DNA of 22,228 nt from a virus. The first letter of the stretch is position 1. Every line of letters starts with the position of its first letter. This document shows positions 2,654 to 9,575 of the stretch, in pieces. The notes beneath the pieces are model-generated. The model was not told the origin of the DNA. It saw nothing but the letters and a program-made list of their open reading frames with translations, and ran no database searches. A program made the position numbers and the translations under genes. The stretch is from positions 1-22,228 of the IMG/VR virus record IMGVR_UViG_3300007515_000043. One strand, written 5' to 3'.

Positions 2654-3070
2654 TTAAAATTCCTCACCATCAGTAAAGAATTCGTCACCATCAGCATTTT
2701 TGTAAGGCACTAAATCCACAACTTGTACAGCTTGAAGATCAAGTCCTACATAAGGACCAAATTTTCCTTCTCCACTATACTCATTGAATTGAACTCTAAC
2801 TTTAGAGCCATTACCAACAGCAACATTTAGTTCTTGCTTCTCGGTGTCAAGCAGTCTAGGTGCAGGTCTAACCATTCCGTTTGGACCATTTACCTTTCGC
2901 TTGATTACAAGTGCAGGACCTTCATCATGCTGTTTTACTTTATGTCCACGAGATGCAAAGTCATTTGCTATAGCCTCGTCAACGATTAAATCAACTGAAT
3001 AAACAGGCTCAAATTTAGTATTAGGTGTACTAATACTTGCCCATTTAGCAGTTCCTTCCATTATTGCCAT
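2654..3070 (-). CDS. Single-stranded DNA-binding protein (T7 gp2.5-like)
   Basis: 138 aa, predicted to coat single-stranded DNA at the fork and contact polymerase and helicase through its tail. Seen: an OB-fold-like C-terminal half with GNGSKVRVQF, KFGPYVGLDL and LQAVQVVDL, as in phage gp2.5-type proteins, and an acidic tail ending DGDEFFTDGEEF with a terminal Phe, the hallmark of phage SSBs. The ATG at 3068-3070 follows AGGAGG with good spacing. Transcription probably starts about 150 bases upstream at a consensus promoter (3226-3254). The leader contains a pseudoknot (3120-3151), which recalls autogenous control of T4 gene 32 by a leader pseudoknot. That parallel is inference. Confidence 0.88.
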   Translation of the reverse strand: MAIMEGTAKWASISTPNTKFEPVYSVDLIVDEAIANDFASRGHKVKQHDEGPALVIKRKVNGPNGMVRPAPRLLDTEKQELNVAVGNGSKVRVQFNEYSGEGKFGPYVGLDLQAVQVVDLVPYKNADGDEFFTDGEEF

Positions 3071-3119: not shown

Positions 3120-3151
3120 TGAGAGTTGTGAGCTGACTACTCTCAAAGTCA
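3120..3151 (-). promoter_or_regulatory. H-type RNA pseudoknot in SSB leader
   Basis: On the leftward RNA, stem 2 pairs TGAGAGT with ACTCTCA (7 bp; plus-strand 3120-3126 with 3139-3145). The hairpin loop begins with AGTCA (3134-3138), which pairs with TGACT just upstream (3147-3151, 5 bp). Loop 1 is one base and loop 3 is seven bases (GCTCACA), dimensions typical of an H-type pseudoknot. It is followed by CACTAATTTTTAAC, then AGGAGG and the SSB ATG. It belongs to the family described for 7741-9332. Confidence 0.7.
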
Positions 3152-3225: not shown

Positions 3226-3254
3226 ATTATACACTACAGTATTCTCCGTGTCAA
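3226..3254 (-). promoter_or_regulatory. Consensus sigma-70 promoter for SSB/replication operon
   Basis: Leftward TTGACA (3249-3254), a 17-base spacer and TATAAT (3226-3231): a perfect sigma-70 consensus. The predicted start near 3219 gives a leader of about 150 bases before SSB. The promoter sits between the 66-aa gene and SSB and would let the replication genes be expressed independently of the upstream small-gene operon. Confidence 0.88.
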
Positions 3255-7247: not shown

Positions 7248-7503
7248 TTTTACTCTCCTCTAGTTTATCTTGTAAGTCTTCAAGCATGTGTTCTAAATCA
7301 GTAAGTCTTACTTCTAAAGCGTCAATGTTAGCCATTAAATTATCGTCTTCTGCTTCTAGGTCTGCTTGAACATCATCAATTTTAGCTTCTAAATCACACA
7401 GCTTATCATCTACATTATCATTAACAGTTTCTGATACTTCTTCAACCACAGTTTCTGTGAAGTCTTTTAAAGTATCGTGTAATTTTATATCATTATTTAA
7501 CAT
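7231..7503 (-). CDS. Hypothetical acidic coiled-coil protein, 90 aa
   Basis: Almost entirely helical, with heptad-like repeats (DLEAKIDDVQADLEAEDDN, then DALEVRLTDLEHMLEDLQ) and strong negative charge. It shares one base with the previous stop (TAATG). A scaffold-like or oligomerising role is plausible; no function can be assigned. Confidence 0.75.
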   Translation of the reverse strand: MLNNDIKLHDTLKDFTETVVEEVSETVNDNVDDKLCDLEAKIDDVQADLEAEDDNLMANIDALEVRLTDLEHMLEDLQDKLEESKNEIIS

Positions 7504-7715
7504 TATTCTACTACCTCAACTATATCGTCAACATAAATGCTACCGGTTTCATCAAACAAACCTATGTCTGAACCTTTAGCATGAACAAGTAAAGTTGTTT
7601 TAAAACCTCTACCTTGCTTAATGCTTTCCATAGCTGTTGCTCTTGTTGGAAATCCTAATTGTTTTGTAATTAGTTTTGTTCCTTTTTTTATTGTTTCAAA
7701 TCCTTCAATCCTCAT
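7503..7715 (-). CDS. Hypothetical 70-aa protein
   Basis: 70 aa, mixed alpha/beta, no recognised domain. The ATG follows AGGAG by six bases. It is the first gene after the long structured leader at 7716-8058 and so heads the operon that runs without gaps to 3258. The leader is preceded by a consensus promoter (8065-8094). Confidence 0.78.
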   Translation of the reverse strand: MRIEGFETIKKGTKLITKQLGFPTRATAMESIKQGRGFKTTLLVHAKGSDIGLFDETGSIYVDDIVEVVE

Positions 7716-7740: not shown

Positions 7741-7776
7741 TGGTAGTTTTTTAAGCAGGTCTACCAACTACTGCCT
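7741..7776 (-). promoter_or_regulatory. Pseudoknot H1
   Basis: Leftward RNA: stem 1 AGGCAG with CTGCTT (one G-U pair; core GCAG/CTGC, 7771-7774 with 7755-7758); stem 2 TGGTAG with CTACCA (7761-7766 with 7741-7746). Linker TAGT, then an A-rich third loop (TTAAAAAA). Lies just upstream of the AGGAG site of the 70-aa gene. Confidence 0.6.
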
Positions 7777-7883
7777 ATCTCGGAATTATACTCTTGCTCT
7801 AGGCTCTCAAGAGTTTGTAATATAGCTTTCTTATTGATCAGATAAGCAATGCAAACTATTTTAATGCCTCGCTATTATACATG

Positions 7884-7934
7884 TGCTAGTTTGATTTGTT
7901 TTAGAACAGCTTGAATTACTAGCAAAGTCTGTTC
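7884..7934 (-). promoter_or_regulatory. Pseudoknot H2
   Basis: Leftward RNA: stem 1 GAACAG with CTGTTC (7929-7934 with 7904-7909, 6 bp); stem 2 TGCTAGT with ACTAGCA (7918-7924 with 7884-7890, 7 bp); third loop TAAAACAAATCAA, rich in A. Larger second loop (eight bases) than its relatives. Confidence 0.62.
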
Positions 7935-7941
7935 GCAATTT

Positions 7942-7978
7942 CAGTTTCGTTTTTTAAGTGGAGAAACTGGACGCACTT
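7942..7978 (-). promoter_or_regulatory. Pseudoknot H3
   Basis: Leftward RNA: stem 1 AAGTG with CACTT (7974-7978 with 7956-7960); stem 2 CAGTTTC with GAAACTG (7963-7969 with 7942-7948); linker CGTC and third loop AAAAAAC. The architecture matches H1, with different stem sequences. Confidence 0.68.
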
Positions 7979-8013
7979 GTTCAAAGCCCACTATATTTAC
8001 AAAGCGTTGTATT

Positions 8014-8051
8014 AGGATTATTCCTTTAAGTCCCATCCTTGTATTTAGGAC
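8014..8051 (-). promoter_or_regulatory. Pseudoknot K1 near the RNA 5' end
   Basis: Leftward RNA: stem 1 GTCC with GGAC (8048-8051 with 8030-8033, 4 bp); the intervening loop holds AGGAT, which pairs with ATCCT downstream (8035-8039 with 8014-8018, 5 bp). Third loop is A-rich. It begins about seven bases after the predicted transcription start. Weaker than H3 or H4 because stem 1 is short. Confidence 0.45.
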
Positions 8052-8064
8052 ACTTTGCAAAACT

Positions 8065-8094
8065 ATTATATCAGCTAGAGAATTCTGCTGTCAA
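8065..8094 (-). promoter_or_regulatory. Consensus extended -10 sigma-70 promoter inside 154-aa gene end
   Basis: Leftward TTGACA (8089-8094), an 18-base spacer and TATAAT (8065-8070) preceded by TGA. That TGA is also the stop codon of the 154-aa gene, so the promoter is built into the end of a coding region. It drives the structured leader and the operon starting at 7715. Confidence 0.85.
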
Positions 8095-8535
8095 CTCCTC
8101 AATAAGTTTGTAAACATCAAAGTCTCCTCCCATAGTTGTAAGTCTCAATTTAGTTTCTAGTGCTCTTGCTTGTTCTCTAGGCATATACCAACGAACTTTA
8201 TAGCTAGGAGCTCTATCACTATAATGTGTCGTTACATCAAAACCTTGTCCAGCTCTACGACCATAAGTGTATATACTTTCAAGGTCATTAGTTTCGTGAA
8301 ACTCTTTTACTAAATCTTCTATAACCTTTTTTCTCATTTTAATAGATTTAGTTAAGTCTTCTCTTTGTTGAACAAGGTCTTCAACTTCAACTATTGTAAT
8401 ATCAAGAGCTTTTACAAGTGCTTGAACATCTTTACGATTTTCAAATTCTTCTAATCCTTTACTCTCAATCCCCTCTTTTACTTGTGCCAAGATTAAATCT
8501 TGGTCTTTTATTCTCATCATTCTTCCTTGTGCCAT
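8071..8535 (-). CDS. Hypothetical 154-aa protein with coiled coil
   Basis: 154 aa. Residues about 45-85 form a charged helix or coiled coil (VEDLVQQREDLTKSIKMRKK), followed by a segment with YTYGRRAGQGFDVTTHYSD and RWYMPREQARALETKL. No family recognised. The ATG has GGAG and an eight-base spacer. The leader upstream (8571-8811) contains three clear pseudoknots, the last one close to the ribosome site. Confidence 0.78.
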   Translation of the reverse strand: MAQGRMMRIKDQDLILAQVKEGIESKGLEEFENRKDVQALVKALDITIVEVEDLVQQREDLTKSIKMRKKVIEDLVKEFHETNDLESIYTYGRRAGQGFDVTTHYSDRAPSYKVRWYMPREQARALETKLRLTTMGGDFDVYKLIEELTAEFSS

Positions 8536-8570
8536 AATATATCTCCATAAATATTAGCGTTAAAAAATAG

Positions 8571-8602
8571 TGCTAGTTTTTAAATGGAACTAGCAAACCA
8601 TT
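8571..8602 (-). promoter_or_regulatory. Pseudoknot H4
   Basis: Leftward RNA: stem 1 AATGG with CCATT (8598-8602 with 8583-8587, 5 bp); stem 2 TGCTAGTT with AACTAGCA (8588-8595 with 8571-8578, 8 bp); loop 1 two or three T, loop 3 TAAA. Followed by CACTATTTTTTAACG, nearly the same tail as after the SSB pseudoknot. The clearest member of the family. Confidence 0.75.
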
Positions 8603-8642
8603 CTGTTATATACTTTTTGTTCTAGGATATATATCACCTAGA

Positions 8643-8677
8643 GTAGTTTGTCTCTGAAGTAAACTACTAAACGCTTC
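8643..8677 (-). promoter_or_regulatory. Pseudoknot H5
   Basis: Leftward RNA: stem 1 GAAG with CTTC (8674-8677 with 8656-8659, 4 bp); stem 2 GTAGTTT with AAACTAC (8661-8667 with 8643-8649, 7 bp); loop 1 CGTTTA, loop 3 AGAGAC. An alternative partner for GGAAG is CTTCC in the neighbouring hairpin loop (8697-8707), so two folds may compete. Confidence 0.58.
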
Positions 8678-8724
8678 CACCTTCTTAAAATTAGCTAGGA
8701 AGTTTTCAGCTAACCATTAGTATA

Positions 8725-8752
8725 GTAGTTTTTACAGAACTACCAAACTGTA
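8725..8752 (-). promoter_or_regulatory. Pseudoknot H6
   Basis: Leftward RNA: stem 1 TACAG with CTGTA (8748-8752 with 8733-8737, 5 bp); stem 2 GTAGTT with AACTAC (8738-8743 with 8725-8730, 6 bp); loop 1 TTTG, loop 3 AAA. The 5' arm of stem 1 can instead take part in a separate hairpin AACTG/CAGTT (8746-8763), giving two mutually exclusive folds. Confidence 0.65.
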
Positions 8753-8839
8753 GGTTTTCAGTTGTTTAATTTATATCAGTATGAACTGTGGGCTTACCCA
8801 AAAGACTGATAGCTCGTCAGCATTTACCCCGAATTTAAT

Positions 8840-9265
8840 CTAGGATTTTATAGACATGGGAGTACCATATCTAATTCTGTTCCAAAGTCTTCCAAAGAAA
8901 GATGTTTCAGAATAGTATTGAATAGCGTCAATAGTTTCCAAAGTATTTTGGACATCTACATTAGAAGCTATCTCAAGTATTTGCATACCCTTGTTTACTT
9001 TAGTTAAAGGAACTCTCCTTGCAAAATATAAAGCGTCTTGCCTGTTAGGATTATCCTTCTGTCTGTAAACAGATACTTTTCCATTATGAAAAGAGTTAAA
9101 GGTACGACCTGTTTCGTTCCCATATCTAGTTTCATTTGCTCTAACTCTAACAATATTTGCTCCAAACGAATGAGCTTGTAGCCATATTGCTTTGACTAGA
9201 GGTGTAGCATTCTCAATGCTTTGAGTAGTCTCACTACCATTTCTACTGTAAGTAAATTTTGCCAT
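8840..9265 (-). CDS. Hypothetical 141-aa protein (MAKFTYSRNG)
   Basis: 141 aa, no recognised family; rich in Arg/Asn/Tyr around VRANETRYGNETGRTFN and ending IRYGTPMSIKS. The frame is open upstream, but the ATG at 9263-9265 has GAGGAT nearby and starts MAKFTYSRNG. The longer start would lie in the pseudoknot leader with no ribosome site. It is preceded by a roughly 250-base leader from the promoter at 9521-9549, which ends in pseudoknot-like H7 and the shared TTAACGCTAA element. Confidence 0.78.
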   Translation of the reverse strand: MAKFTYSRNGSETTQSIENATPLVKAIWLQAHSFGANIVRVRANETRYGNETGRTFNSFHNGKVSVYRQKDNPNRQDALYFARRVPLTKVNKGMQILEIASNVDVQNTLETIDAIQYYSETSFFGRLWNRIRYGTPMSIKS

Positions 9266-9299
9266 AATATTATCCTCATAATGTTTAGCGTTAATAGGT

Positions 9300-9332
9300 G
9301 TTAGTTTACTTCTACTCGAAACTAACAAAGAG
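9300..9332 (-). promoter_or_regulatory. Hairpin/possible pseudoknot H7
   Basis: Leftward RNA: an 8-bp stem GTTAGTTT/AAACTAAC (9319-9326 with 9300-9307) preceded by TTT and followed by CAC, like H4. The loop contains GAG, which can pair with CTC just upstream (only 3 bp), or GAGTA with TACTC about 50 bases upstream. The hairpin is solid; the knot is weak. Confidence 0.5.
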
Positions 9333-9518
9333 GATTTTCAAAAACAAATCTTAAGCGAATGTTTAAGTCGGGAGAGTACATGCAGGTTATTTTGTATTAT
9401 CAATCGCTGGTGTTTCTCTAAAGTTCCCTTGATATATGAGTGGTTTTATTTTATCTGATGTATATATTATCAGCTCTTTTACTCTATATCCAAAACTTTG
9501 CAATCCTCGATTGCCTTT

Positions 9519-9575
9519 ACACTATGCCACAAGGCAAAGCCGAAGTCAACCCCAAGTTATCTAAAAAAATAAAAT
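9519..9575. repeat. Promoter-bearing direct repeat, copy A
   Basis: An imperfect copy of 10188-10244. Shared blocks include ACTATGCCACAA, CGAAGTCAACC, and the run CAAGTTATCTAAAAAAATAA. The repeat covers the -10, spacer, -35 and an A/T-rich upstream segment of a leftward promoter. Confidence 0.85.
9521..9549 (-). promoter_or_regulatory. Leftward sigma-70-like promoter, repeat copy A
   Basis: TTGACT (9544-9549), 17 bases, CATAGT (9521-9526) with TGG immediately before it (extended -10). An A/T-rich stretch upstream could serve as an UP element. It sits between the 97-aa gene and the 141-aa gene and is duplicated at 10190-10218 with identical spacing. Confidence 0.72.

Follow-up and report, generated by a model that had tools for sequence, protein, structure and literature searches.

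In phage T4 the gene 32 operator consists of a ~28-nt pseudoknot and, behind it, unstructured UUAAA-rich RNA that contains the ribosome binding site (RBS) (PMC535899). Here we describe small H-type pseudoknots in the window, i.e. the whole 22,228-base virus record IMGVR_UViG_3300007515_000043 (G+C 34%), where they lie in the leaders of leftward early genes coding for proteins of 70, 154 and 141 residues (aa) and for a gp2.5-like single-stranded DNA-binding protein (SSB). Sequence comparison places one type, class A, in many unrelated phages and not in bacterial genomes; a second type, class B, is found in the SSB leader. As in the gene 32 operators of T4 and RB69, the leader of a phage SSB gene here holds an H-type pseudoknot with an unstructured U/A-rich stretch and the RBS behind it, but the SSB is gp2.5-like and not gp32, the sequence differs, class A also stands before non-SSB genes, tRNA and promoters, and protein binding is putative.

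Type III antitoxin RNAs (ToxI, CptI, TenpI and antiQ) are likewise small tandem H-type pseudoknots, some with loop-stem triples, whereas the elements described here come without a toxin gene, are diverse in sequence, and occur in mRNA leaders one at a time or a few together. The preQ1-I riboswitch (RF00522) shares with them a small H-type pseudoknot with an A-rich loop near the Shine-Dalgarno (SD) sequence, but the phage elements are without its ligand-pocket loop, its association with queuosine genes or a match to its covariance model. Telomerase and SAM-II pseudoknots contain U.A-U triples, and a similar U-rich loop here tracks the A-U part of the second stem. The exoribonuclease-resistant RNAs (xrRNAs) of eukaryotic RNA viruses have a ring-like fold; they too are compact pseudoknots, sometimes in tandem, and a ribonuclease stop is also what we propose below, but the present elements are simple H-type knots in DNA phages and their resistance is putative.

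The class A fold and its distribution

Class A elements consist of two stems (S1 and S2) and three loops (L1 to L3) in the order S1 - U(n+1) - NNYRG - U(n) - S1' - A-rich loop - A(n) - CYRN'N' - AC. The initial annotation had proposed H-type pseudoknots with co-varying stems, repeated along the leaders, and this is borne out by homologous leaders, by a test blind to S1 and by an alignment of SSB leaders. All of the complementary arms that it named are present on the - strand, but they do not make up the single uniform family it envisaged: most members are class A, the SSB leader holds a separate class B, and the structures at 7978-7942 and 8713-8674 are built differently.

IMG/VR contains 13 relatives of the 154-aa protein, with identities from 81% down to 43%, and their leaders have pseudoknots close before the start codon with stems that differ between records. 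At this place the window has AATGG/CCATT with GCTAGT/ACTAGC, L002 has GAGG/CTTC with GGTAG/CTACC, L003 has AAGTG/CACTT with TGGGTA/TACCCA, and L012 has GTGG/CCAT with GCTAG/CTAGC; GGAAG/CTTTC is found in L004 and GCAG/CTGT in L005. Leaders of the 141-aa gene have CTC/GAG and GTTAG/CTAAC in the window and L171, CCCA/TGGG and GCTAG/CTAGC in L003 and others, CAG/CTG and GGTAG/CTACC in L007, ACCAT/ATGGT in L002, and ATGG/CCAT in L129, and the homologues keep the distance to the start codon. These two sets of leaders were compared by hand because MAFFT alignments misplace S1. Compensatory changes in homologous leaders, whose absence would have counted against the initial annotation, came out strongly. 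Relatives back six leader structures, five of them in the 70-, 154- and 141-aa leaders and one in the SSB leader, and the others in the window are weak.

IMG/VR was scanned with the pattern TTGGTAGT-N4..18-AAAACTACCAC, which fixes S2 only and leaves S1 out. It gave at least 120 stretches in the GG form and 62 in the GC version, whereas a scrambled stem of similar composition gave 5. In the 68 distinct matches that have the main geometry, positions 1 to 4 of S1 are paired in 87, 85, 90 and 74%, compared with 80, 57, 40 and 45% after swapping of partners (maxima 84, 65, 54 and 57% in 300 swaps), and position 3 is variously C-G (20), A-U (16), G-C (13), U-A (7) and G-U (5). With flush S1, and with few exceptions, the number of Us before S2 is one more than at the S2 junction end: (2,1) in 15, (3,2) in 28 and (4,3) in 11. 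Such tracking of S2 length by L1 length would be explained by U.A-U triples, which are probable as judged from lengths alone.

A relaxed scan of 1.78 Mb for any NNXYZ found the core UAG 66 times, UGG 8 times, CGG 4 times, and three others, with 2.7 matches per shuffled pass. S2 variants outside the search pattern include GGUGG/CCACC, UCUGG/CCAGA, UCCGG/CCGGA and GCCGG/CCGGC, and because UGG and CGG cores fall outside that pattern the paired changes in them were not made by it. An alignment of 37 chosen copies has 95.6% of its cells paired, a figure that only describes the set behind covariance model R1 since the copies were selected for pairing. In the window R1 matches 8602-8570 (46.1 bits, E 1.7e-10), the fold there being kept with other stems in homologous leaders, together with 8751-8722 (E 2e-6) and 7773-7740 (E 7e-5), and each of 18 related records has 1-6 matches at E 0.1. 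Class A is present in the cultured phages Mosig (two copies), HTVC008M (one copy, GGCAGU/ACUGCC) and Melnitz (one copy). The GG pattern has 38 matches in the GTDB bacterial genomes, none with flush S1. No Rfam family was assigned by cmscan (gathering score) to elements in the window or at eleven other loci, and we found no description of the motif in the open-access literature, which does not cover most subscription journals.

When H-type pseudoknots in general were searched for by stacking energy, the three leaders gave 5, 6 and 1 at -9 kcal/mol (shuffle means 4.3, 3.9 and 2.2) and 4, 5 and 1 at -11 kcal/mol (shuffle means 2.7, 2.7 and 1.2), i.e. no significant excess over dinucleotide shuffles. 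The specific geometry, with UU before S2, AC after S2' and short loops, occurs 3 times in the leaders against a shuffle mean of 0.10, and none of 300 shuffles reaches 3. The argument that a match between loop and flank is expected only occasionally by chance, like the comparison with shuffled sequences suggested along with it, thus holds for this geometry and fails in its general form. The geometry was narrowed after the elements had been seen, so the comparative tests carry the main weight.

Class A copies are placed on the sense strand at transcript and cistron borders, and their strand is mostly that of the neighboring genes (crude open reading frame calls). In the window and its relatives they stand 20-50 nt before start codons, and the genes behind them include those for gp2.5-like SSBs, primase-helicases, small heat shock proteins (sHSPs) and the small proteins of the window; beyond the window, the assignments as SSB, primase and sHSP come from sequence likeness judged by eye. 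Six phage tRNA arrays have the element ~4 nt before tRNA-Glu, and in T4-like marine phages elements occur within a ~400-nt non-coding region that separates the S21 and sHSP genes, as well as at its end, the copies of Mosig, HTVC008M and Melnitz among them. In the L145 group the element follows a stop codon by 4-5 nt and immediately precedes a TTGAC..TATAAT promoter. A second group of gp2.5-like SSBs (38% identical) has class A before the SSB gene, either before its promoter, as in most leaders, or directly before the SD. The stretch at +3 to +9 behind the elements is U-rich (T fraction 0.40-0.60), and T-runs of at least four follow 33 of 93 copies compared with 6 and 7 of 93 in the flanks; the U-rich stretch is somewhat weaker in copies without an RBS. 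A lax RBS pattern was dropped as a context statistic because the control was nearly as frequent (73 vs 55 of 93).

The ~400-nt region is conserved in the T4-like phages (L015:8380-8820, L245:6120-6500, L033:860-1260), where it follows a T4-like TATAAATA late promoter, precedes the sHSP gene and includes two class A pseudoknots. It is modular, one domain being absent in L094, has no Rfam match, and in Mosig is annotated as two hypothetical proteins (gp14 and gp15).

Class B in the SSB leader

Relatives of the SSB were picked by protein and without any RNA pattern, their 130-nt leaders were listed, and 38 distinct leaders were aligned. The stems TGACT/AGTCA (S1) and GAGAGT/ACTCTC (S2) are paired in 98.8% of the cells, compared with 27-49% for slid versions, and compensatory changes are present in all five of the S1 pairs. 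Two-sided changes amount to 42 cells over the structure versus 10 in shuffles (0/500 reaching the observed number), and the covariation score is 0.357 vs 0.148. Leaders L310-L312, L314 and L315 and those of the L322-L326 group were excluded from the alignment because they lack the element or were cut, and class B is therefore not universal. Its L1 is not composed of U only, so no triples are implied. Class A and class B have a common topology and different sequences, and both stand at a comparable place ahead of gp2.5-like SSB genes, one in each of two groups, which suggests a shared function. Folding of the SSB leader by minimum free energy gives a z of 0.36, the method being uninformative for pseudoknots.

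The SSB leaders have other conserved features. The sequence GCCCTCTATCTCCA (window 3191-3178) is strongly conserved and partly complementary to the SD, and a 5' hairpin AACCAACA/TGTTGGTT may hold it in its loop. Pairing of the conserved CCCUCUAUCUCC with the SD was considered and set aside, as CUCC/GGAG is nearly always possible and no clear covariation is seen further (by eye). In HTVC115P (L243 7500-7921) a ~400-nt non-coding leader precedes the SSB gene and has a possible GTTGG/CCAAC and GAGTAGT/ACTACTC pseudoknot of other make.

Genes, promoters and individual elements of the window

By its large terminase, which shares 65% identity with the enzymes of pelagiphages HTVC115P, HTVC103P and HTVC104P and 49% with that of HMO-2011, the virus is an HMO-2011-type marine phage; the host is probably an alphaproteobacterium. 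The leftward genes comprise a primase-helicase, the gp2.5-like SSB and numerous small genes without known family (Table 1). No PHROG match and no Pfam family above cut-off was found for the 70-, 141- and 154-aa proteins.

Table 1. Genes, promoters and RNA structures of the window discussed in the text.
Feature	Coordinates	Strand	Sequence or remark
gp2.5-like SSB gene	2654..3070	-	phrog_112 E 7e-11
Class B pseudoknot in SSB leader	3121..3151	-	TGACT TT GAGAGT AGTCA GCTCACA ACTCTC
Sigma-70-like promoter of SSB leader	3226..3254	-	TTGACA-N17-TATAAT, 12/12
70-aa gene	7503..7715	-	no family (PHROG/Pfam searches)
Class A pseudoknot before 70-aa gene	7742..7774	-	GCAG TAGTT GGTAG AC CTGC TTAAAAA CTACC AC
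Possible pseudoknot, unsupported	7773..7813	-	CTCTTG..GCCTA..CAAGAG..TAGGC; absent in L001
Class A-like pseudoknot with long L2	7885..7934	-	GAACAG ACTTT GCTAG TAATTCAAG CTGTTC ... CTAGC AC; R1 E 0.13
Pseudoknot of other make	7942..7978	-	AAGTG CGTC CAGTTTC TC CACTT AAAAAAC GAAACTG
Pseudoknot at presumed 5' end of 70-aa leader	8014..8055	-	enclosed by TTTGCAAAG/CTTTGTAAA; weak
Sigma-70-like promoter starting 70-aa leader	8065..8094	-	TTGACA-N18-TATAAT, 12/12; inside end of 154-aa gene
154-aa gene	8071..8535	-	no family; 13 IMG/VR relatives
Best class A pseudoknot	8572..8603	-	GAATGG TTT GCTAG TT CCATTT AAA AACTAGC; 36 nt before ATG of 154-aa gene
Class A-like pseudoknot	8642..8677	-	GAAG CGTTT AGTAG TTT A CTTC AGAGAC AAACTACT
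Hairpin	8674..8713	-	TTAGCT-GAAAACTTCC-AGCTAA; loop CTTCC can pair with downstream GGAAG
Class A pseudoknot	8724..8752	-	TACAG TTT GGTAG TT CTGTA AA AACTACT
141-aa gene	8840..9265	-	no family (PHROG/Pfam searches)
Class A pseudoknot before 141-aa gene	9300..9333	-	CCTC TTT GTTAG TT TC GAG TAGAAGTA AACTAAC ACC
Sigma-70-like promoter of 141-aa leader	9521..9549	-	TTGACT-N17-CATAGT with TG, 9/12

The promoter at 8094-8065 retains 11-12 matches in 11 of 12 homologues, and because of this conservation the 70-aa leader probably forms a 5' untranslated region of ~340 nt whose first structure lies at its start. Since this promoter starts the 70-aa leader at about that structure, the leaders probably belong to more than one transcript and not to one long one. 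Near-identical TTGACTTCGG..TTGTGGCATAGT regions, at 9549-9521 and in a second copy at 10218-10190, precede two leftward gene groups. Ordinary terminators with long T-runs are present in the window.

The S1 of the 7942..7978 element, AAGTG/CACTT, recurs in L003 leaders with a different S2, and the element has one S2 mismatch in L001, the closest relative. In the element at 7885..7934 L2 is 9 nt, and at 7742..7774 a similar leader in L012 has ACAG/CTGT and GCTAG/CTAGC and L001 is without S1. The structures at 8055-8014 and 7813-7773 draw their support from the window alone. In the leaders behind two 154-aa homologues (L006 2620-2890, L012 6450-6680) the first domain, at the presumed start of the transcript, has TTTGTAGTTAG/CTAACTACAAA as its closing arms; at this place the window has the pair of arms that encloses 8014..8055.

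Relatives of the 8642..8677 element have AGTGG/CTACT (with G-U) in L001 and GGTAGTTT/AAACTACC in L182, and the L182 counterpart of the adjacent hairpin is TTAGTT/AACTAA, with the loop and the shared GGAAG unchanged. This GGAAG (within 8713-8642), also the S1 arm of the 8642..8677 element, can partner either the upstream CTTCC loop or the downstream CTTC; the alternative is kept in L001 and L182 and is possibly an either/or switch.

Possible roles of the pseudoknots

No protein-coding, riboswitch, terminator or antitoxin reading covers all of the contexts. Their common denominator is an RNA or cistron border, and for this reason we favor, at somewhat less than an even chance, a phage-specific cis-acting pseudoknot that would act as an RNA stability or boundary element. 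We infer that it would fold in the cell right upon transcription, the short U loop lying along S2, probably in U.A-U triples, and the A-rich loop along S1, to form a compact block. At its sites in 5' leaders and between cistrons, or immediately ahead of the next promoter or a tRNA, it could block or slow ribonucleases from one side such that RNA on the protected side would be longer-lived, and the U-rich tract behind it may keep the RBS open. The first structure of the 70-aa leader, at the presumed 5' end of the transcript, is in line with border placement. Several points weigh against such a role: a general stabilizer would be expected in more than the 1-6 copies found per record; class A is absent from the cultured phages with the closest terminases, HTVC115P and HTVC103P; the class B element of the SSB sits mid-leader, away from the transcript end; and the conserved S2 core could equally reflect recognition by a protein. 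A broader claim, which we hold to be doubtful, is that these elements make up a new phage-restricted family of H-type pseudoknot RNAs in unrelated DNA phages, probably triple-stabilized, that would protect or delimit RNAs against bacterial ribonucleases and be a counterpart of the xrRNAs.

A translational operator of the T4 gene 32 type seems rather unlikely for the elements taken together. The repressor would be an RNA-binding protein of the phage, with the gp2.5-like SSB as the likeliest candidate, that nucleates on the pseudoknot, spreads over the U/A-rich leader and covers the RBS, and so represses its own gene and some other early genes. The covarying pseudoknot in 38 aligned SSB leaders of the window's group, the class A element before the SSB gene of the second gp2.5 group, the primase-helicase genes downstream of class A, the UUUUAA-type stretches behind elements and the T4-like layout of the SSB leader all agree with this, and for class B alone the case is stronger, perhaps an even chance. 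However, a TTTACT..TATAAT-like promoter stands between pseudoknot and gene in most second-group leaders, so that their SSB mRNA would lack the element, and T4-like marine phages have class A before the sHSP gene and none in the gp32 leaders examined. The intervening promoters and element-free gp32 leaders weaken an SSB operator as the sole function; the tRNA context, and the likeness of class A to class B in topology and not in sequence, also speak against an operator. We think it less likely still that the nascent pseudoknot is a transcriptional pause site or attenuator, acting on RNA polymerase in the U-rich tract ~5 nt downstream to lower or time read-through, as the T content (fraction 0.5-0.6 at +3 to +9), the excess of T-runs and the several copies between units, ahead of a new promoter, might suggest. 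An element in a leader would then shut off its own gene, and many copies have no U-run. The spacing from stem to U-tract is also too long for an intrinsic terminator, and a scan for these (GC-rich stem, U-tract 0-2 nt behind) called none of the elements, so the terminator reading was rejected.

Phage PhiTE escapes ToxIN by means of pseudo-ToxI repeats (PMC3475682), and the topology, U-rich L1 and A-rich L3 of the present elements are as in the type III antitoxins ToxI, CptI and TenpI. An RNA decoy or antitoxin that mimics these and neutralizes or titrates a host endoribonuclease toxin is nonetheless very improbable, as the repeats are not near-identical, single copies stand before sHSP or tRNA genes, and no Rfam match was found in the sources scanned. 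No gene for ToxN, CptN, TenpN, AbiQ or a defense function was found among the leftward-gene proteins tested (Pfam, PADLOC). The initial annotation had itself separated the elements from the near-identical ToxI repeats, a distinction that stands given stems that differ between copies and the lack of a ToxN relative among those proteins; a type III antitoxin thus fails on the adjacent toxin gene and the near-identical repeats, and agrees in the H-type pseudoknot. Least probable of all, by a little, is a ligand-binding riboswitch of the preQ1-I or SAM-II type, for which a small H-type pseudoknot near the RBS might argue. The genes downstream have no common pathway, L2 is only 0-2 nt and leaves no ligand pocket of known kind, and neither these riboswitches nor any other Rfam family matches at E up to 5 in the window, L001, L002, L006 and L012.

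That a well-defined RNA fold is widespread in several kinds of phages, while bacterial genomes and Rfam are without it, hints at a difficulty which phage RNAs have in common inside bacteria, and because the cultured phages Mosig, HTVC008M and Melnitz have copies it is open to study at once. If the SSB operator is true, gene-32-like autoregulation would have arisen with an unrelated SSB; the ribonuclease block, if true, would open the question of phage control over RNA decay.

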